NCBI RefSeq assembly: GCF_000226095.1
Contig: NC_016474.1
Coordinates: 4,216,001 to 4,280,000, forward strand
Length of the DNA: 64,000 nucleotides
DNA from: Thermothelomyces thermophilus ATCC 42464
Lineage: Eukaryota; Ascomycota; Sordariomycetes; Sordariales; Chaetomiaceae
Direction: 5' to 3'
The notes beneath the pieces are model-generated. The model did no database searches. It was not told the origin of the DNA and saw only the letters and a list, made by a program, of their open reading frames with translations. The position numbers were made by a program, and so were the translations under genes. Below, piece by piece: positions 2,258 through 47,139 of this stretch; the stretch's first letter is position 1, and every line of letters begins with the position of its first letter.

Positions 2258-2908
2258 ATGCCGATAGAGAAACGGAAGTCACACTCTGTACGTTACCGTG
2301 CTTCCCTTGCTTAGAATATCGCTAAGAACGGTTTTGTCGTTATGCCTTGCTCTTGGTACGCGTCGTAAGGCCTTGTCTGCAAAATGATCACGCGCACAAA
2401 GCGTTGCGAGGCCTGTGTTTGTTAAGGTCGTTCTTACGATAGCTTTGGTATCCCGCTTTCTTCCTATAAGCCTGTCTCCTTTTTTTTTTTTTTTTTTTTA
2501 CTATAATTCCTGATGTTTGTTCTAGTAGATCGTATTCTTTAGGAGCAGCGTCATATTAAAGATGCTAAATGTCGTGCCGAACTTGAGCTAGATGAATCCT
2601 AATGCCGTCTAGAAGAGGCCTAGCGTAAGTTGTCCGAAAAGCTTACATGGCTCCGGCGTCTTTGTTAGTAGAAGGAGTTTTTAGTAGAGAAAGGTGCCAA
2701 TATAGTGGCACGTAGTCTGTCGACCTTAGACGAGTTAGAGGAGGTTAAGCGGCAAGAGACGCCTGCTATGCCCTTGTTATAGATTAATGATACCGTCGAT
2801 GCTATCAACTGGGGCGCCGTCTTTGGTTCTGTCCCAGGTTTTCCTTTGGTCGATCCGGGTTCTGCCGATAGAACTATTCCAGTTTCTTAGGGCAGTTCAA
2901 ATTCTTAA
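2258..2908 (+). pseudogene. Antisense Zn2Cys6/coiled-coil gene of element A
   Basis: It lies between the end of pol and the 3' LTR, on the opposite strand to the element. Exon 1 is 2258-2465 (208 nt) with ATG 128 bases from the LTR edge; exon 2 is 2526-2908. The intron carries a long T run and a TTCTAG acceptor; its donor has been changed from GT to AT by RIP. Exon 1 shows, allowing for TGY-to-TAY changes, the spacing C-x2-C-x6-C-x8-C-x2-C-x6-C of a fungal zinc cluster. Exon 2 reads as a charged coiled coil around EKLTWLRRL and KEFLVEKGA. In-frame TAG/TAA codons stand where the G copy or C copy keeps sense codons. The last 123 bases overlap the 3' end of pol tail to tail. DNA binding is inferred from the cysteine spacing only. 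Confidence 0.7.
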
Positions 2909-9269: not shown

Positions 9270-9274
9270 CCTTA

Positions 9275-9445
9275 CAATTACAATACTTATACCAAGCATC
9301 GTTATTAACTACTATAAGAGATAACTCTAGTATTATTATAAACCCTTTGGCTTTACCGAATCCCTTAGACGACTTGCCTACTTGTCCTGCTTAATCTACC
9401 TTCGTCTGAACCCTTTTAGAAGAAGTCTAAGTTAGGTTCGTCACA
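9275..9445 (+). repeat. 5' LTR of element B, second part
   Basis: R-U5 remainder following the second CCTTA target duplication of A; ends GTTCGTCACA. It contains CTCTAGTA/CTCTAGTG, the subfamily II form. Immediately downstream is the RIP-altered primer-binding site of B. Confidence 0.9.
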
Positions 9446-9472
9446 TATTACTATTACTCCCTTTGTTCTATT

Positions 9473-11958
9473 ATAGTTTAGAACAGAGGTAACTTCGACC
9501 TTAATATCGATATAGCTACTAACGTCATAGCTAAATAGCTGCTTACCTAGCTTGGTCAACTCTATTAGCGAATCTAGGAGTTAGACTAAAGAGATAAGGC
9601 TGCTTAAGCTCGAATCAAGGAACTCGAGAACAGCGAAAAGCACTTGTAGAAATTGGTTAACGAGGCCTATACCAAAATCAAGGCACTCGAGGGCACTAAA
9701 GTAAGCTATATTAAGATCGAACTACCTAGCAAATATAGAGGAACTAAGGAGGATCTTATAGGATTCCTAATAAACCTCTGATCCTACTTCCGGCTTAATG
9801 ACGACAAGTTTCCGGATAACAAAGCCAAAGTCCTTTATATAGCTATAAGACTAGAGGGCAAGGCACTTAGATAGTTCGAGCCTACGTAGAATGACTATCT
9901 TATTAAGGAAGACGAAGATAACCGAGACGTATTTACGTAAGTAGTCTTTCGATCTTATAACTATTTTAAAGAAGAGCTTTAGAAGGTTTTTAGCAATAAA
10001 GATAAGAAGATTTATATATAAGAAAGACTTGCTAATCTCTAATAGACTAAGTTAATAGCCTCCTATACTATATAGTTTAGATAAGACATACTTAAGTCTT
10101 AGCTTAATAATAAAGCATTAATATAACTATTCTATAATGGCTTAAAGGAAAAGGTTAAAGATAAGCTATATAAGTATAATTAGCCTAAGACTCTAGATAA
10201 ATATATTATATAGGCTATTAGAATTAATAATTAACTCTATATACAAAAGTAGTAGAAACGAGGTCGAATAAATAGAACTATAATCAAGGCTAATAATAAG
10301 AAAAAGCGAACGTACGTTAGTACCTTATATAAGATATACCCTAGAGCTATAGATATAGATATAATATAGAAGTAGGACTAGAAGAAGATAACCAAAGATA
10401 AGTCTAATGTTACCTACTATAACTATAGAAAGAAAGGGCACTATAAGCAAGAATATTAAAGCCTAAAGAAAGAGTAAAAGATAGTCCCTGGAAAGGAAAT
10501 TACGGCTATTAACGAAACTACTAAGGACGTCATCGAAGTAGTAGCTACGAGCTACAAAGACAGGGGCAATGATATAGACAGTTTTAGATACGACAGTAAC
10601 GGTAAAGACGAACAAGCACCGTACTCCGAACTGGTTACTATAGACCTAGAGATAGGTCTTGCTAAATAGGACATAGTGGGAGAATACGTACTGCCAATTT
10701 CGATTCTCCTAGCCTTAAGGCAGTAGGGTTTCACGGTTATATAGAGGCGGGATAGATCGTAGATAACCGACACCTAAGGAATCGAAAGACCTGGACCTAA
10801 TATTCTATTCCTCTAGGAATAAATCAAATGGTACTATAATGAAGTTCTCTGGCTTAATACGGAACTATGTAAATAAGATAGACACTTGATTTGACTTGCC
10901 TAGTGGAGCGATAAGATAAAAGACGAGATAAGGGAACTCTGACGTATCATAGAAACCATTAAAGGAGAATAGCCTGTGATATATAATAGGCCCGATAGCT
11001 ACGCCGAGCACCTTAATGACTAGTAACTTAGTAACAATATACGGAACCTAAAATACTAGTTTATATACGCGAACCGTGGAAAAGACAAGCGTATATAGGA
11101 AAGCCATTAGAAGAAATACTTTTACTATAGTATTAGAGTACCTATAGTCTATGTATAATAGGAAGGATTTGGGAAAGAATTCTAATACCTCCTAGGTAAC
11201 GTTATACGACTATACCCTTAATACGAGGCATATATACAAGTGCCCTAGTTTTAGTATATAGTATATAGATGCTAATATCACTTCTATAATAAATTCGAAA
11301 ACAATTACTAGCCAACCTGACAAGGAAATGAGGACGGAAGCTTATACCTTATAGAATAGGTCTACAATATAGGAAATAGAGTGGCCGAATTGCTCTAGAA
11401 GATCAAAGCCTACGATCTAGAAGGCATTACGATAGTTCTAAGACAAGCCTAGCCTAGGTACTATAGAATAGGACGGGACATATAGGACTCATGCTAGAGC
11501 AACGATTGCCTCTATCACGTAGATAAAAAGGAATCGCGAATTCGGGAGCTTTAGATAAAGCTATAGTATGTACGACGGAAAGCAGAACGGACCTAATAGT
11601 AGGAAGCTATAAGCACTTAATAGCTTACAGAAATAAGTATGATTGACGAAGCCGCTATTAGCCGAACAACCAAAGAGGTTAGCACTAACCTAGGAAACGG
11701 GTTAGGGCCCTTTAAGGGGCCTAGAAACTATTAATGCCTATATAGCGGCAAGTAGTAATATAGTATAGGAGGAACTAGCATAAGAGACCACTATATCAAG
11801 ACCTCCTAGCAGAAATATAAGAAATCGCCGTAATCTTTAGACGATAGCGGTAAGATAAGCGACTATAGATAATAGCATAATGGAAATAGCACGAAATACT
11901 TGTACTAGTAGATAGTAGAGTAGAGATAAACCTAATTTTGCCGACGCTTATAAATTAG
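9473..11958 (+). pseudogene. gag and gag-pol junction of element B (5' part)
   Basis: Start codon is now ATA at 9473. The frame follows the gag of A and G: N-terminal coil, capsid region near 9690-9900, CCHC knuckle near 10420-10460. The slip signal AGGAAAC is at 11692-11698, again exactly 2223 nt from the start codon position. Protease begins before the frame is broken by element C at 11958. Dense TAG/TAA changes at former CAG, CAA and TGG codons. Confidence 0.75.
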
Positions 11959-12377
11959 TGTGACGAACCCAACTCAGACTTCTTCTAAAAGGGTCCAGAC
12001 GGAGGTAGGTTGAGCGGGACACGTAGGCAGGTCGTCTGAGGGATTCGGTGAAGCCAAAGGGTTTACAACAACACTTAGAGTTGTCTCTCACAGTAATTAG
12101 CAATGCTTGGTATGAGTACTGTGATTGTGATTGTTACCACTGGTGAACTCCCAGAGTCCACCATAACGAGTGACTATCTACATGTATATATAATCCTAGT
12201 GATCACTCCTGATCACGGTGATCATGAGTGATCGCATAGTGGTGATCACCCTGATCGCTGGTAAGCGTAGTGATCACTATACTTCCCATGTTGTAATTGG
12301 TCCTTCCGTTCCTTCGGCTTGATTGGCCCGTTTGTGCCGGTAGCCTAGGCGGCATCTGCATATATATTTCCGTGACA
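11959..12377 (-). repeat. 3' LTR of element C (type-2 U3 with GATC array)
   Basis: 419 bp. The U3 holds seven GATC cores, mostly TGATCAC, within 12200-12280, and two CCAAT boxes (ATTGG on the plus strand) near 12295-12330. A TATATATA box lies near 12184-12193. R-U5 matches the type-1 elements. Confidence 0.92.
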
Positions 12378-12507
12378 CGATGCCCTCCCTCCAAGGCTTT
12401 CGACCCGAAAGCCCTCTTTTTAGGCCGTCTTAAATAGCACTAACATCCCTTGCGTTACTTGTACGTGTTTTTCTCCTTAGTCCTCGTTACCCTTCGTGCT
12501 ATTAATC

Positions 12508-13118
12508 ATGCTGTCTAACGCGCGCAGATCCCTAGCGTCTATTCGTCGTGAGCGTTTGGCTTAGTTTATTTCCGATCACGGGTTCGTAGTGATGGTGTGT
12601 TCCCATTGCGTAGAGTACAACCGAGTATGTAAGATGATTAAAAAATCTCGTTACTACGAGGCTTGCGTGCGTCGGGGTCGTGCTTATAATGGTTCTAGCG
12701 TTCCCGTTTCTTCTTGTAAGTTCCTGTTTTCTTGCGAGGGCACGTCTCTGATCATAACGCAGTAGATCGTATTATACGCAAGCAACGTCGTTTGAAGGCT
12801 GAAGAGAAAGAGGCCGAAGCCTTGCTACGGGAATATCAATACAAAGCTTCTAAGGCGTTAGCCCGTCTGACTCGGGTTCGTGAACAACGAGAGTTCCTGG
12901 TGGAGAAGGGGGCAGACATGGTTACACGGGGTTTGTCGAATCTAGACGAGTTGGAGGCGGTAGAATAGCAGGAATCGGGGGCCGTCGTGTAACTTAACGG
13001 TAGCGTCGACGTTATTGACTAGGGCGCTGTTTTCGGTTCTGTCCCAGGTTTGCCTTTGGCTGATCTGGGTTCTGCCGATGGAACTGTTCTAGTTTCTTAG
13101 GGCAGTTCAAGTTCTTGA
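12508..13118 (+). pseudogene. Antisense Zn2Cys6/coiled-coil gene of element C
   Basis: The clearest copy of this gene. ATG at 12508, 130 bases from the LTR. Exon 1 is 12508-12715 (208 nt, the same length as in A and G). The intron 12716-12762 has a GTAAGT donor, a CTGATCATAAC branch region and an ACGCAG acceptor. Exon 2 is 12763-13118; total 188 codons. Exon 1 has CSHC, then C six residues later and EAC; two Tyr codons sit where the other cluster cysteines are expected, giving C-x2-C-x6-C-x8-C-x2-C-x6-C. Exon 2 is a coiled coil (KQRRLKAEEKEAEALLREY) with a conserved tail LDELEAVE. Stops at former Gln/Trp codons inactivate it. Its 3' end overlaps pol convergently. Related to fungal proteins with a zinc cluster and coiled coil; role unknown. 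Confidence 0.75.
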
Positions 13119-19029: not shown

Positions 19030-19031
19030 CG

Positions 19032-19450
19032 TGTGACGAACCTAACTCAGACTTCTTCTAAAAGGGTCTAGACGGAGGTAGGTTGAGCAGGATATGTAGG
19101 CAGGTCGTCTAAGGGATTCGGTGAAGCTAAAGGGTTTATAACAACACTTAGAGTTGTCTCTTATAGTAATTAGCAATGCTTGGTATAAGTACTGTAATTG
19201 TGATTGTTACCACTGGTGAACTCCTAGAGTCTACCATAACGAGTGACTATCTACATATATATATAATCCTAGTGATCACTCCTGATCACGGTGATCGTAA
19301 GTGATTGCATGGTGGTGATCACCCTGATCGCTGGTGAGCGTAGTGATCACTGTACTTCCCATGTTGTAATTGGTCCTTCCGTTCCTTCGGCTTGATTGGC
19401 CCGTTTGTGCCGGTGGCCCAGGCGGCATCTGTATGCATATTTCCGTGACA
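19032..19450 (-). repeat. 5' LTR of element C
   Basis: 419 bp. It differs from the 11959 copy essentially by C/T and G/A transitions. Carries the GATC array (19270-19350) and two CCAAT boxes. Confidence 0.92.
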
Positions 19451-22400: not shown

Positions 22401-23637
22401 AGAATAAATGTACACACTATATAAAAAGCTTAAAAAGGAACTCGAGTTTGTCAAGACCAAAATGAAGAATTACTATAACAAATATAGGCTTAAGGGACCT
22501 TGCCTAGAGAGGGGAGACAAAGTCTACCTAATCGTATAAAACTTACAAACTAAACAACCAAGCATAAAGCTAGACTTTGAGAAGATCAGACCCTTTGTTA
22601 TTAAAGAATGAATTTTGACATCTAACTACCAACTATCGTTACTATCATCTATACAACTACAGATAGATATTTTTTATATTTCACTTCTCGAACCAATACT
22701 AAAGAATGCCAAGGTTGCTATATATATCAAAGTAGAGGATAAAGAGGAAAAATAGGACATCGAAGAGATTCTAGATTTATATATTATTAATAGAGAACTA
22801 TAATACCTAGTCAAATAGCTTAATTTTAGACTAGAAGATAACTTATAGGAACCTATTAAGAACCTAAATTGCCCTAAGAAACTAAAGCAATTCTACCGGC
22901 AGAATCCTAACCAGCCATAATAACCGGCTCTAAAGCCTATTCCCCGACAGAAAAAGAGGGGAACCCACCAGAATTAGGACCAGGATCTAACCCGATTAAC
23001 TCCTAATCAAGTACGTCAAAAGCACCTAACGCCTAAGCCTAACCTACAAAGGTCTACATCTCCGATATCAGCGGAGGAGTATCTAGCTCTTCTTCCTCCT
23101 CTAGACGAGCTATACCACGACGAAAAACTTTAGTACTACGATCGTACAGGGATTGCTATAAACGACGTAATCGACTTAAATGGCTCAACGTCTAAGCAAG
23201 TAACGCCTTAGTCTTAGTAATCTTCCTCGAAACCTTCTCCTGCTCTAATAAATTCGAAAGGACTAAGATAGTTAATAATCTAAGACTATAAAGGAAAATA
23301 ACGAGGAACCTATAGGTATCTATAATGTTCGGACTATTATACTTCTTGCCTATATAAATATAGTTTTAATACTTATTTAAACCCTCTATCATTATATAAC
23401 GCTTTTACGGCTTTATATTCTAATAATGCTCGCAAGGTATAGCGACTTTATAACCCTCTCGCTTAATCTTAATCGTAATAGTATATCGTTCACGTTTAAG
23501 ATTACGACGATTCCTAGGAATACAATCAGCTATAGCGAAAGGAAGTTAGCAGAAGAAGGACGTTACCTACTAGGAAGAGAGGGGTATTAGTAGTACTCGA
23601 AACAAGTTATAAGAAGCTTTTAGGTCGAAAGCCCTAA
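19456..23637 (+). pseudogene. pol of element B with in-frame C-terminal extension
   Basis: Continues from 11958 after C. Protease remainder, RT (about 20160-20760, YLDD near 20580), RNase H (from about 21020), integrase (about 21590-22330) and chromodomain (about 22740-22880). Instead of stopping soon after FYRQN as its relatives do, the same frame continues through a Pro-, Ser- and Gln-rich segment of about 220 codons (from about 22915) to TAA at 23635. Removing C, start to stop plus the -1 shift is 6669 nt, exactly 2223 codons, so the extension is in frame despite heavy RIP. Recognisable stretches are STSPISAEEYLALLPPLDEL and NDVIDLNGSTS. Function of the tail unknown. Confidence 0.7.
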
Positions 23638-26534: not shown

Positions 26535-27145
26535 ATGCCGTCCAACGCGTATAGATCCCTAGCGTCTATTTGCTATAAGCGTTTAGCTTAGTTTATTTCC
26601 GATTATAGGTTCGTAGTGATGGTATATTCCTATTGTATAGAGTATAACCAAGTATATAAAATGATTGAAAAATCTCGTCGTTACAAGGCTTATATACGTT
26701 AGGGTCGTACTTACAATAGTTCTAGCGTTCTAGTTTCTTCTTATAAGTTCCTGTTTCCTTGCGAAGGCACGTCTCTGATCGTAACGTAGTAGATCGTATT
26801 ATACACGAGCAACGTTGTTTAAAGGCTAAAGAGAAAGAGGCCGAAGCCTTGCTATAAGAATATTAATATAAAGCTTCTAAGGCGTTGGCCTATCTGATTT
26901 AGGTTCGTGAATAACGAGAGTTCCTAGTAGAAAAGGGGGTAGATATAGTTATATAGGGTTTATCAAATCTAGATAAATTAGAGGCAGTAGAATAGTAGGA
27001 ATCGGAGGCTATTATATAACTTAATAGTAGTGTTAACATTATTAACTAGGGCGTCATTTTCGGTTCTGTCCTCGGTTTGCCTTTAGCCGATCTAGGTTTT
27101 ACTAATAGAACTGTTCTAGTTTCTTAGGGTAGTTTAAGTTCTTAA
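26535..27145 (+). pseudogene. Antisense zinc-cluster gene of element E (type 2)
   Basis: Equivalent to 12508-13118 in C, with ATG at 26535, 131 bases from the LTR. Exon 1 ends at 26742 (208 nt); the donor is changed from GT to AT by RIP. Exon 2 starts after the ACGTAG-type acceptor near 26790. Several cluster Cys codons read Tyr, and stops are frequent. Confidence 0.65.
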
Positions 27146-33482: not shown

Positions 33483-34870
33483 TACCTAGACTAGTGGTAC
33501 CTAACGGAGTGGAAGAAAAAGATAGGAAACTCTAGTATTAAGGTAAAGTATATATCTATAATAAAGACTAATAGCTATAAATGATTCGAGAACTCTATAA
33601 GTTAAAACTTAGAGGATATAAAGGAGTTATAAAGACTGTTGTATAAGTTAAAAAATACTACGACTTTCTATAGTTAATAGTATAAGTTAAGAAAGTCGTA
33701 CGAAGCTATGACATCTATAATCGAAGCAAAATAGTATAATATGAGCCGTATAGGCTACTTTAGCTATTGCTAATAGCTGACAAACTATAGAGTTTAGTTA
33801 TAATAGACCTTATTATAAAGCTATTAGAATCTAAGGATATAGCTATAGGAGTAATCTATGATAGTATTCTTACTATAGTAGATCGCCTAACTAAATAGGT
33901 ATACTTCTTCCCATATAAGGAGTTATAGATAGCTAAATAGCTAGTAGACGTGATCTATCGGCAAGTTACATTAGTATATACTTAGCTATAAAAATAGATT
34001 ACCAATAGAGATACTAAGTTTATATCGAAGTTCTAGCAAGCGTTAATATAATAATTAGGCATTAATAGCAAGCGGTATATTACCTATAGACTAATAGACA
34101 AATAGAATAACTAAACTAAGTTATTAAGTAGTACCTCCGTTCCTATGTTAACTACTAGTAAGATGACTAGGTCATGCTATTACTAATAGTATAACTCGCT
34201 TATAATATAATACCAATGGAAACGACCAAGGTCACACCATTCTTTACAAACTATAGATACGAAGCAGACCTTAGGCAAGGACTAGAGGTTATAGTACCAA
34301 GAGTAGCAGTTAAAGTAAAACAAATATACGTACTATATAAGAAGCTTAAAAAGGAACTCGAGTTTATTAGAACTAGAATAAAGAACTACTATAATAAATA
34401 TAGGCTCGAGGGACCTCGCCTAGAGAGGGGAGACAAAGTCTACCTAATCATACAAAATCTATAAACCAAACAACTAAGTACAAAGCTAGACTTTAAGAAG
34501 ATTAGACCCTTCGTTATCAAGGAACGAATTTCGACATCTAACTACCGACTATCGTTACCATTATCTATACAATTATAGACAGATGTTTTTTATATTTCAC
34601 TTCTCGAACTAGTACCAAAGAATGCCAAGACCGCTATAAATATTAATGCAGAGGATAAAGAGGAAGAATAGGACATCAAAGAAATTCTAGATTTATATAT
34701 CATTAATAGGGAACTATAGTATCTAGTTAAATGACTTGATTTTAGATTAGAAGACAACTTATAGAAACTAGTTAGGAATTTAAACTGCCCTAAGAAACTA
34801 GAACAGTTCTACTAGCAGAACCTAGATCGATTAAAGGAAAACCTAGGACAGAACTAAAGATAGCGCCCTA
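33483..34870 (+). pseudogene. integrase and chromodomain of element D
   Basis: Starts in the region just upstream of the integrase zinc finger, directly at the LTR of E. The H-H-C-C region, DDE core (about 33810-34140) and C-terminal domain can be followed; an 82-codon open stretch (34216-34464) matches the integrase C-terminus at 3220-3461. Chromodomain at about 34660-34790. Confidence 0.7.
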
Positions 34871-35424
34871 ATCGATAGTATCGACGGTATCATTAATCTA
34901 TAACAAGGGTATAGTAGGCGTCTCTTGCCGCTCTTACCACTTAACCTCCTCTAACTTGTCTAAGGTCGACAGACCATACGCTATTATATTAGCACCTTTC
35001 TCTACTAAAAACTCCTTCTACTAATGAAGATACTAGAGCTATGTAAGCTTTTCGGACAACTCGTACTAGGCTTCTTCTAGATAGTATTAAGATTTATCTA
35101 GCTCAAGTTCGGCACGACGTTTAGCATCCTTAATATGACGCTGCTCCTAGAGAATACGATCTACTAGAACGAACATCAGGAATCATACTTATAAAAAAAA
35201 AAGGAGACGTGCTTATAGGAAGAAAGTAGTATGCTAAAGCTATCGTAAGAACGACCTTAGCAAACGTAGGCTTTGTAACGCTTTATACATGTGATCATTT
35301 TATAGATAAGGCCTTATAACGTATATTAAGAGTAAGATATAACGATAAAACCGTTCTTAGCGATGTTCTAAGCAAGGAAAGTATAGTAATGTATAGAATA
35401 CGACTTCCGTTTCTCTATTAGCAT
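34772..35424 (-). pseudogene. Antisense zinc-cluster gene of element D (type 1)
   Basis: ATG on the minus strand at 35424, 128 bases from the 3' LTR. Exon 1 is 35217-35424, again 208 nt; exon 2 is 34772-35163. The intron has a T10 run (A10 on the plus strand) and a mutated donor. The total is 200 codons with RIP stops. The type matches the U3 type of D. Confidence 0.62.
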
Positions 35425-43266: not shown

Positions 43267-43286
43267 GTCTTTTGTCCTTAAAAGAC
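43267..43286. other. Hairpin beside the polypurine tract, element F
   Basis: GTCTTTT GTCCTT AAAAGAC, a 7-bp stem at the position where A, C and G have GGCTTTCG/CGAAAGCC. Sequence differs but pairing is kept. Confidence 0.55.
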
Positions 43287-43381: not shown

Positions 43382-44020
43382 ATAGCTAATTATATAAGAA
43401 AGAAGTCGAAATCTAAACCTACTATATTGACTCTTTATACTAATTACCTTCTTATAGCAATTCTTTCTTTAGATAGCCTTTTAATAATGCGTCCTTGTTT
43501 ACTATATAAGTCTAAAGGCCTTAGTTTATATAAGGTCTCGAAAGCTAACTCTTCTTGATATATAGAGTACGTTTGTAATAAACACTCGAATTATAACGTT
43601 CTTAGTGTCTCCCCTGCTTAGCTTTAGTCTATCGTAGCTTAGCATTAGAAACTTAAGGATAAACTTATAGCTACTAAGGAGCAAGTCCTTTGTCTTTAGA
43701 AATAAAAGCGGATGTGGTTTAAGAAGATGATAAGGGCTATTGCTTGGGGTATTAATAGTGTAGAGAAGTTAGAGCGAGTGGAGCGTAAGGAGGCTAAGGC
43801 GGTGGCGGCAGCAGAGGCTTCTAGGGTTACTATATCTTCTTTAACCCTATCTTGCCTATCTGCCGATTTCGGATAGCTTTAGGATACTATATATCCTGAA
43901 GTTCCTTTGGATCTATCCTTGCTAGCCGATTTCGAGTTAGTCTCTAGTCTATTGCTTTTAGTCGATTAGGGTTCCTCTAATGGAACTGCTAAAGTTTCTT
44001 AGGGTAATTTAGGTTCTTAA
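43382..44020 (+). pseudogene. Antisense zinc-cluster gene of element F (type 4, intronless)
   Basis: Start codon now ATA at 43382, 133 bases from the LTR; stop TAA at 44018-44020; 639 nt = 213 codons in one frame with no intron, unlike types 1 and 2. RPCLLYKSKG begins the cysteine region, followed by a segment in which Tyr codons (YIEY, SNY) stand at expected Cys positions, with spacing slightly different from types 1 and 2. A coiled coil follows (KLKDKLIATKEQVL, then VEKLERVERKEAKAVAAAEA). It is interrupted by RIP stops. The divergence from types 1 and 2 is large, so it is a paralogue rather than an allele. Confidence 0.6.
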
Positions 44021-46482: not shown

Positions 46483-47139
46483 ATACCGATAGAGAAACAG
46501 AAGTCGTATTTTACACGTTACCGTGCTTCCCTTGCTTAGAATATCGCTAAGAACGGTTTTGTCGTTATACCTTGCTCTTGGTGCGTGTCGTAAGGCCTCG
46601 TCTGTAAAATGATCACACGCACAAAGCGTTATAAGGCCTATGTTTGTCAAGGTCGTTCTTGCAATAGCTCTGGCATCCCGCTTTCTTCCTGTAAGCCTGT
46701 CTCCTTTTTTTTTTTTTTTTTTTTTTTTTTACTATAATTCCTAATGTTTGTTCTAGTGGATCGCATTCTTTAAGAGCAACGTTGTATTAAAGATGCTAAA
46801 CATCGTGCCAAACTTGAGCTAGATAAATCCCAACGCCGTCTAGAAGAGGCCTAGCGTGAGTTGTCCGAAAAGCTTACGCGGCTCCGGCATCTTCGTCAGC
46901 AGAAGGAGTTTTTAGTAGAGAAAGGTGCCGATATGGTGGCGTATAGTCTATCGACCTTAGACGAGTTAGAGGAGATTAAGTAGTAAGAGACGCCTACTAT
47001 GCCCTCGTCACAGATTAATGATACCGTCAATGCTGTCGACTGGGGCGCCGTCTTTGGTTCTGTCCCGGGTTTTCCTTTGGTCGATCCGGGTTCTGCCGGT
47101 AGAACTGTTCTAGTTTCTTAGGGCAGTTCAAATTCTTGA
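46483..47139 (+). pseudogene. Antisense Zn2Cys6/coiled-coil gene of element G
   Basis: Exon 1 46483-46690 (208 nt), intron 46691-46756 with GTAAGC donor, a long T run, an ACTATAAT branch region and TTCTAG acceptor, exon 2 46757-47139; 591 nt = 197 codons. The start ATG has become ATA. The zinc-cluster spacing is the same as in A, followed by a coiled coil (REL or RRL heptads around 46850-46930) and an acidic TLDELEEIK motif. It overlaps the last 125 bases of pol tail to tail. The 3' LTR U3 lies just upstream and could act as its promoter. Confidence 0.7.

Follow-up and report, generated by a model that had tools for sequence, protein, structure and literature searches.

Antisense genes near the 3′ long terminal repeat (LTR) of retrotransposons have been known for years in plants and fungi, with their function unsettled. 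The gag-pol element Boty of Botrytis cinerea, which has a CHROMO domain and carries the antisense gene brtn (Zhao et al., 2011, as cited; PMC7264820, PMC8365987, PMC4227169), shows from these partial accounts that such genes are already known in fungal chromoviruses. In plants, TRP28 of Retand lies antisense in the interval from pol to the 3′ LTR, and the excerpted account predicts that its product binds DNA and suggests that it acts in regulation (PMC11963269); gene23 of the maize element Grande is described in a review excerpt as an antisense accessory gene with its own promoter and a nuclear product (PMC7264820). The products of such genes are without clear similarity to other proteins according to the same excerpt (PMC7264820). 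The subject here is an antisense gene in element C, a chromovirus in a 64,000-nucleotide (nt) stretch of the thermophilic fungus Thermothelomyces thermophilus ATCC 42464 (Sordariales, Chaetomiaceae; contig NC_016474.1, positions 4,216,001 to 4,280,000), termed the window. The gene is linked to a recognizable DNA-binding pattern and, through co-variation with the U3 region of the LTR, to a testable target: as judged by sequence comparison, the putative regulator gene and the control region vary together on a constant backbone in what is a cassette structure. Like brtn, it is an additional gene of a fungal CHROMO element that runs antisense in the space separating pol from the 3′ LTR; the two differ in that the cited passages on brtn, compared by description only, give no zinc cluster, intron or U3 link. 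The gene resembles TRP28 in position and predicted DNA binding, whereas Retand is a plant, non-chromovirus element whose product has domain PF04195 and for which the excerpt describes no U3-gene cassette. It resembles gene23 as an antisense accessory gene, the latter differing as part of a plant element. Among the top listings of open-access literature, which do not establish absence, no zinc-cluster antisense gene in a retrotransposon and no U3 link of such a gene were found.

Six element types (Y, IV, I, D, V, and x43) were distinguished and one Y copy served as the reference for comparisons. The sense strand of element C is the minus strand of the window. A first-pass annotation of the window had proposed an antisense gene between pol and the 3′ LTR that starts close to the LTR; the exons, donor, acceptor and terminal stop were located in element C, where 130 nt separate the start of exon 1 from the inner LTR edge. 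The features of the element are as follows.

11959-12377, minus strand: 3′ LTR of element C; the paired LTR is at ~19031-19450 and 93.8% identical
12182-12377, minus strand: type-specific U3 of element C, a candidate operator array with nine GATCAC/GTGATC words (top hexamer count 9, reached in 0/1000 dinucleotide shuffles), upstream of the sense-promoter TATA-like box (by eye) and 5′ of the antisense gene; blastn aligns 1/210 sites with type-Y U3
12378-12455, strand unassigned: conserved island of polypurine tract, inverted repeat and leader, in which types IV and I show 0-1 transversions against type Y over 77 aligned nt; x43 does not align to Y here
12508-12715, plus strand: antisense exon 1 (208 nt), a basic N-terminus and Zn2Cys6-like cluster; one stop, and Tyr at two cluster positions
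12716-12762, plus strand: intron, GTAAGT...CGCAG, with acceptor AG at 12761-12762; its position relative to exon 1 is the same in type Y
12763-13118, plus strand: antisense exon 2, with predicted coiled coil, conserved helix and a tail with conserved Asp-Trp; contains stops
12997-13118, strand unassigned: convergent overlap of antisense exon 2 and the pol 3′ end, placed by homology with type Y (overlap 122 nt)
13116-13118, plus strand: terminal stop TGA of the antisense gene

The pol C-terminal match beside the gene is at 13791-13036. Element C is tied by DNA and pol similarity to a type-Y copy in which seven pieces were recognized: Retrotrans_gag (5.5e-12), Asp_protease_2 (2.1e-6), RVT_1 (9.5e-39), RT_RNaseH_2 (5.5e-32), Integrase_H2C2 (4.6e-16), rve (6.3e-8) and Chromo (4.6e-14). 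This copy thus has the gag, pol and C-terminal Chromo domain that characterize chromoviruses among Ty3/gypsy elements, and the Chromo domain in pol bears out the chromoviral host originally proposed.

The antisense gene is real, spliced and protein-coding. A search of the genome (38,744,216 bases in seven contigs) with protein P0052 produced at least 177 matches (best 150 of 1097 candidates scored), and the identical exon 1 of the young type Y was present at at least 18 places (best 40 of 211 candidates scored). Seven type-Y copies (L043-L047, L051 and L052) were compared whole. Their LTRs are 448-452 bp and 99.6-100% identical within each copy, the sense strand has frames of 767 and 1264 amino acids, and the antisense gene on the opposite strand has two stop-free exons, all six cysteines and GT-AG splice sites with the donor at base 208. 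A poly-T tract in the intron varies by up to 14 bases among these near-identical copies while the exons are constant; this variation shifts the unspliced frame, which fits an intron. Splicing in types I and Y places Leu at the junction to give Ser-Ser-Leu-Asp-Arg-Ile, and the intronless homologue P0016 reads straight through as Ser-Ser-Leu-Asn-Arg-Ile. In type Y the convergent overlap with pol measures 122 nt (L045), in accord with the first-pass annotation of such an overlap. Type Y looks like a recent burst, apparently untouched by repeat-induced point mutation (RIP), amid many RIPed relatives in the genome. The hypothetical genes MYCTH_71551, MYCTH_105130, MYCTH_79143, MYCTH_77342, MYCTH_64320 and MYCTH_60726 (P0026, P0028, P0030, P0052, P0111 and P0132, respectively) look like fragments or odd models of the antisense gene.

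Three protein searches yielded 6, 33 and 128 matches (E ≤ 10, 10 and 1, respectively); in the latter two, scoring covered the 7994 and 7995 candidates with the most words in common, and 120 of the 128 matches were listed. The named sources, mostly Sordariomycetes, are Chaetomium, Canariomyces, Corynascus, Verticillium, Pyricularia, Colletotrichum, Metarhizium, Cryphonectria, Apiospora, Fusarium and Pseudogymnoascus, and several homologues are named 'Zn(2)-C6 fungal-type' in UniRef. The pattern of Zn2Cys6 proteins (PF00172) is C-x2-C-x6-C-x5..12-C-x2-C-x6..8-C, and their fold consists of two short helices that surround a two-zinc cluster. This six-cysteine pattern is found in homologues and in the seven unmutated Y copies, all of which keep the six residues, as the first-pass annotation had anticipated once RIP was undone: the cluster is present in 67 of 132 retrieved homologues, in 65 of them with exactly C-x2-C-x6-C-x8-C-x2-C-x6-C, and many of the remaining 65 proteins are fragments without the cluster part. 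The more distant P0107 (Pseudogymnoascus), P0091 and P0115 have the same cysteine spacing and other residues around the last cysteines. On sequence grounds, the family may extend beyond Sordariomycetes.

Pfam Zn_clus was matched at E ≤ 10 by 42 of 56 chosen members (best E 0.001), the next family by seven, and in a separate set by five of ten proteins. The Pfam gathering cut-off for PF00172 (21 bits) was not reached, the top score among those shown being 18.1 bits for P0016, and neither the window exons nor P0001 matched Zn_clus. No zinc-cluster match emerged from PDB sequence searches with P0001 and A3 or from an NCBIfam search, and Rfam gave 0 matches at gathering scores in the 64-kb window. 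An AlphaFold model of the family as a single chain had a mean predicted local distance difference test score (pLDDT) of 85.8 and a predicted template modeling score of 0.50, with block means of 93-96 for residues 31-60 and a helix at residues 69-127 (block pLDDT 89-99 from residue 71). The single-sequence model of P0001 (mean pLDDT 58) was confident for residues ~131-200 only. Both Foldseek matches to the family model were Pho7 and weak. All seven VIA-align rows also were weak and were Zn2Cys6 factors: 1cld, which we take to be LAC9 (33/33 residues at 1.8 Å), three HAP1, two PUT3 and Pho7. The fold is predicted to be Zn2Cys6-like, and the models predict a coiled coil after the cluster, in line with the annotated order of intron followed by coiled coil. 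A coiled-coil dimerization segment in this position is a trait of Zn2Cys6 transcription factors. The label 'GAL4-type' given in the annotation fits the cysteine spacing and the weak structural matches, with the curated profile below its cut-off.

Conservation of the gene in heavily mutated copies had been advanced as an argument for selection, which proved weak. Among 31 type-I copies, 15 have GT and 16 have AT as donor, 29 have AG and two have AA as acceptor, and 19 begin with ATG and 12 with ATA. Transversions affect only 2 of 208 columns in exon 1, nearly all differences being RIP-like transitions, and 9 of 271 columns in exon 2 before the pol overlap, six of these being third positions, which is at best a weak hint. 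As nearly all changes are transitions, conservation within type I indicates recent common origin and selection was rejected as its explanation. The comparison between types, the test by nonsynonymous (dN) and synonymous (dS) divergence originally suggested, gave a different outcome. Exon 1 of Y and IV shares 37 of 69 residues, with 19/15/30 transversions by codon position, dN 0.52 and dS 2.0; exon 2 shares 70 of 122 residues, with 28/15/37 transversions, dN 0.39 and dS 1.02, part of exon 2 coinciding with pol and dS approaching saturation. Against the RIP-mutated C and V the direction is the same, except for exon 2 of IV versus C (21/12/21). Past selection is evident between types and from homologues in other fungi, as read from these sequence comparisons.

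The backbone of the six types is nearly uniform. Relative to Y, transversions in pol number 5 in 3670 aligned sites for IV, 4 in 3670 for I, 9 in 3406 for D, 1 in 1330 for V and 23 in 1887 for x43, with 0-2 per 150-nt window between Y and IV or I. R/U5 differs by 1-5 transversions per 197-232 sites, and the gag side by 8 in 1962 for IV and 7 in 2242 for I, the only types compared there, D and x43 being truncated elements and V being represented by 2.7 kb. On this backbone, blastn aligns with Y only 0-5 of 210 U3 sites across types and 0 of 208 exon 1 sites for I, D, x43 and V; exon 1 of IV aligns over 64 sites with 12 transversions, and the 3′ part of type-I exon 2 before the pol overlap over 98 sites with 13 transversions. 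When U3 of Y, IV and I was forced into global alignments, 136-147 positions matched, whereas shuffled sequences averaged 119-124 and peaked at 128-133, a sign of residual ancient kinship. The diverged block starts shortly before the sense TATA-like box, reaches approximately to the end of pol and is interrupted by the polypurine-tract island, in which D and V align to Y over 41 and 65 nt without transversions. Fast evolution in place was rejected as the sole cause of gene divergence, as near-saturated synonymous sites lie beside nearly unchanged pol: recombination is needed. The types of U3 and gene matched in 61/61 rows in which both parts were typable, representing 55 distinct places counted by hand from coordinates (31 I, 10 IV, 10 Y, 2 D, 1 V and 1 x43); blastn hits of <90 nt were dropped, six rows are the queries themselves, and the rows come from gene searches and are non-random, with U3 and gene being neighbors.

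A perfect inverted repeat, GGCTTTCG-ACC-CGAAAGCC, stands beside the polypurine tract at 12395-12413 and in the same place in types Y, IV and V. Although the arms of the x43 repeat (43267-43286) differ, visual inspection shows that they still pair, and in one of the pairs both partners carry a transversion, a pattern suggestive of a conserved stem-loop.

The words in U3 were counted against dinucleotide shuffles, leaving out words of one or two letters. GATCAC (either strand) occurs nine times in type-I U3 and six times in type-IV U3 (0/1000 shuffles each), and type-V U3 contains AGGATC and GGATCA five times each (0/1000 shuffles reached the top). Dense GATCAC-like arrays are thus present in U3 of three of the six types. 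The top hexamers of Y (280/1000 shuffles), D and x43 U3 were not significant, nor did six R/U5 and three leader-plus-exon-1 controls contain a significant word array. With five-letter words, the top word of type-Y U3, ATCAC, was reached by 52/1000 shuffles; GTGAT, a word chosen after looking, occurs there five times versus 0.72 expected (2/500 shuffles). In known Zn2Cys6 factors the stretch between Cys2 and Cys3 contacts bases through conserved basic residues, and the targets contain CGG half-sites. In the present family this stretch varies more than any other of seven blocks (2.49 bits, against 0.51 for the least variable, Cys5-Cys6) and conserved basic base-contacting residues were not found in it. 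CGG operators were rejected, CGG not being clearly enriched in five U3s.

The reading judged probable is that gene and U3 form an exchangeable self-recognition cassette in which a dimeric, antisense-encoded factor binds its own U3. A spliced antisense mRNA would start in or beside U3 of the 3′ LTR, and its product, in which a Zn2Cys6-like cluster is joined to a long predicted coiled coil and a conserved Asp-Trp tail, would dimerize and bind the repeated sites of the U3 that belongs to its own type. The bound factor would set the activity of both the sense promoter in the 5′ LTR and its own antisense gene. U3 is the one control region that adjoins the two, and a factor bound there could control both: the U3 in the 3′ LTR precedes the antisense gene, and the U3 in the 5′ LTR is upstream of the sense TATA-like box. 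Gene and U3 would be exchanged as a unit by recombination, probably by template switching during reverse transcription, on a uniform backbone, with the outcome that each element type recognizes itself. Regulation of the element's own promoter, one of several targets raised in the first-pass annotation, is strengthened by co-variation of gene and U3 on a shared backbone; the expression, zinc binding, DNA binding, target and sign of the product are what we infer. As to sign, a positive autoregulator or anti-silencing factor is most likely, with a repressor or immunity role only slightly less plausible.

The main rival is linkage without function, which is considered unlikely. The protein would have another role (RNA binding, nuclear import or chaperone activity), and U3 and gene would travel together as neighbors beyond the last template switch. 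The two are ~130 nt apart, one switch in pol during minus-strand synthesis would carry both, as deduced from the known mechanism, and U3 alone varies in Tnt1 of Solanaceae in the excerpted account (PMC1838419); by itself, however, such linkage leaves unexplained the GATCAC-like U3 arrays, the resemblance to transcription factors and the variable Cys2-Cys3 stretch. Action of the protein on host genes or host silencing generally, instead of its own U3, is doubtful: a Zn2Cys6-like protein could bind many host promoters and the Asp-Trp tail is reminiscent of an activation tail, but U3 co-variation on the shared backbone points to a target within the element. It is highly improbable that the antisense RNA itself regulates the element through double-stranded RNA or quelling, with the protein incidental, a notion that draws on the 122-nt convergent pol overlap in type Y and on spliced antisense non-coding RNAs from Blumeria retrotransposons as excerpted (PMC10648671), and against which stand the protein-level constraint between types and the exact cluster in 65/132 proteins. 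A chance open frame or RIP artefact, to which the stops in the window copies might point, is refuted by the unmutated copies and the 128 database matches and can be dismissed.

Elsewhere in the window, six further copies or counterparts of the gene are present.

2258-2905, plus strand: gene copy of element A, type Y, RIP-mutated
22980-23527, minus strand: very divergent copy of type D, accompanied by a U3 of its own; tblastn matches weak (E 0.17 to 2e-4), pol with 9 transversions/3406 nt versus Y
26535-27112, plus strand: gene copy of element E, type I, RIP-mutated
34775-35424, minus strand: inverted gene copy of a truncated element, type Y, RIP-mutated
~43400-43960, plus strand: most divergent counterpart (type x43, U3 likewise its own), identified from its position and by visual inspection; tblastn found nothing at E ≤ 1, pol with 23 transversions/1887 nt versus Y
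46483-47136, plus strand: gene copy of element G, type Y, RIP-mutated

The antisense gene or a divergent counterpart adjoins every one of the seven pol 3′ ends in the window. The original description of a gene in six of seven elements with one cysteine spacing was too neat: there are seven sites, and the spacing differs by eye in both divergent copies (type D and x43). A 208-nt exon 1 in five elements was recovered (A, C, E, G and the inverted copy at 35424), although the element letters may not correspond. Elements C and G have a GT donor; in A, E and 35424 it reads AT, the change expected from RIP. Element A differs from an unmutated relative at 794 positions, 695 of which are C-to-T on either strand and mostly at CpA/CpG; such C-to-T-dominated differences match the action of RIP, by which the window copies have been mutated. 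The window is crowded with elements, among them an inverted partial element at 9274-11958 that resembles the LTR and gag side of element A and abuts element C.

Several systems are comparable in part. VANC of VANDAL belongs to another element class and is another protein than the chromovirus antisense gene. As excerpted, VANC of Arabidopsis VANDAL is an anti-silencing protein that binds to short motifs, concentrated in the non-coding part of its own transposon, and co-evolves with these motifs (PMC5735166). The targets in VANDAL evolve by tandem repeats in that account, whereas the cassette proposed here would be exchanged on a constant backbone. HBZ of human T-cell leukemia virus type 1 (HTLV-1) is a spliced antisense gene from the 3′ LTR that encodes a dimerizing basic leucine zipper (bZIP) regulator. 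The likeness lies in a spliced, antisense, dimerizing regulator and the difference in the bZIP and the human retroviral host element, the analogy being one of description. The review excerpt mentions that the HTLV 3′ LTR has an antisense promoter (PMC7264820). The Tnt1 superfamily has a conserved body and variable U3, termed modular evolution in the passages concerned (PMC1838419). Tnt1 U3 groups differ from the present types in that these passages describe no encoded factor that varies with U3. In lambdoid phages, the regulator and operators of the immunity region vary together on a shared backbone; this is a phage repressor system and serves as an analogy only. If the proposed reading is true, a function is offered for widespread fungal hypothetical proteins, some of them named 'Zn(2)-C6 fungal-type', and self-specific regulation evolves in modules in retrotransposons just as in phages. 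By the same analogy, and more tentatively, the retrotransposon population may be split into self-recognition groups, each of which would carry an antisense-encoded zinc-cluster factor and a matching U3 operator array, exchanged as a single cassette on the shared gag-pol backbone, and would switch on or check only its own kind like the immunity groups of phages.
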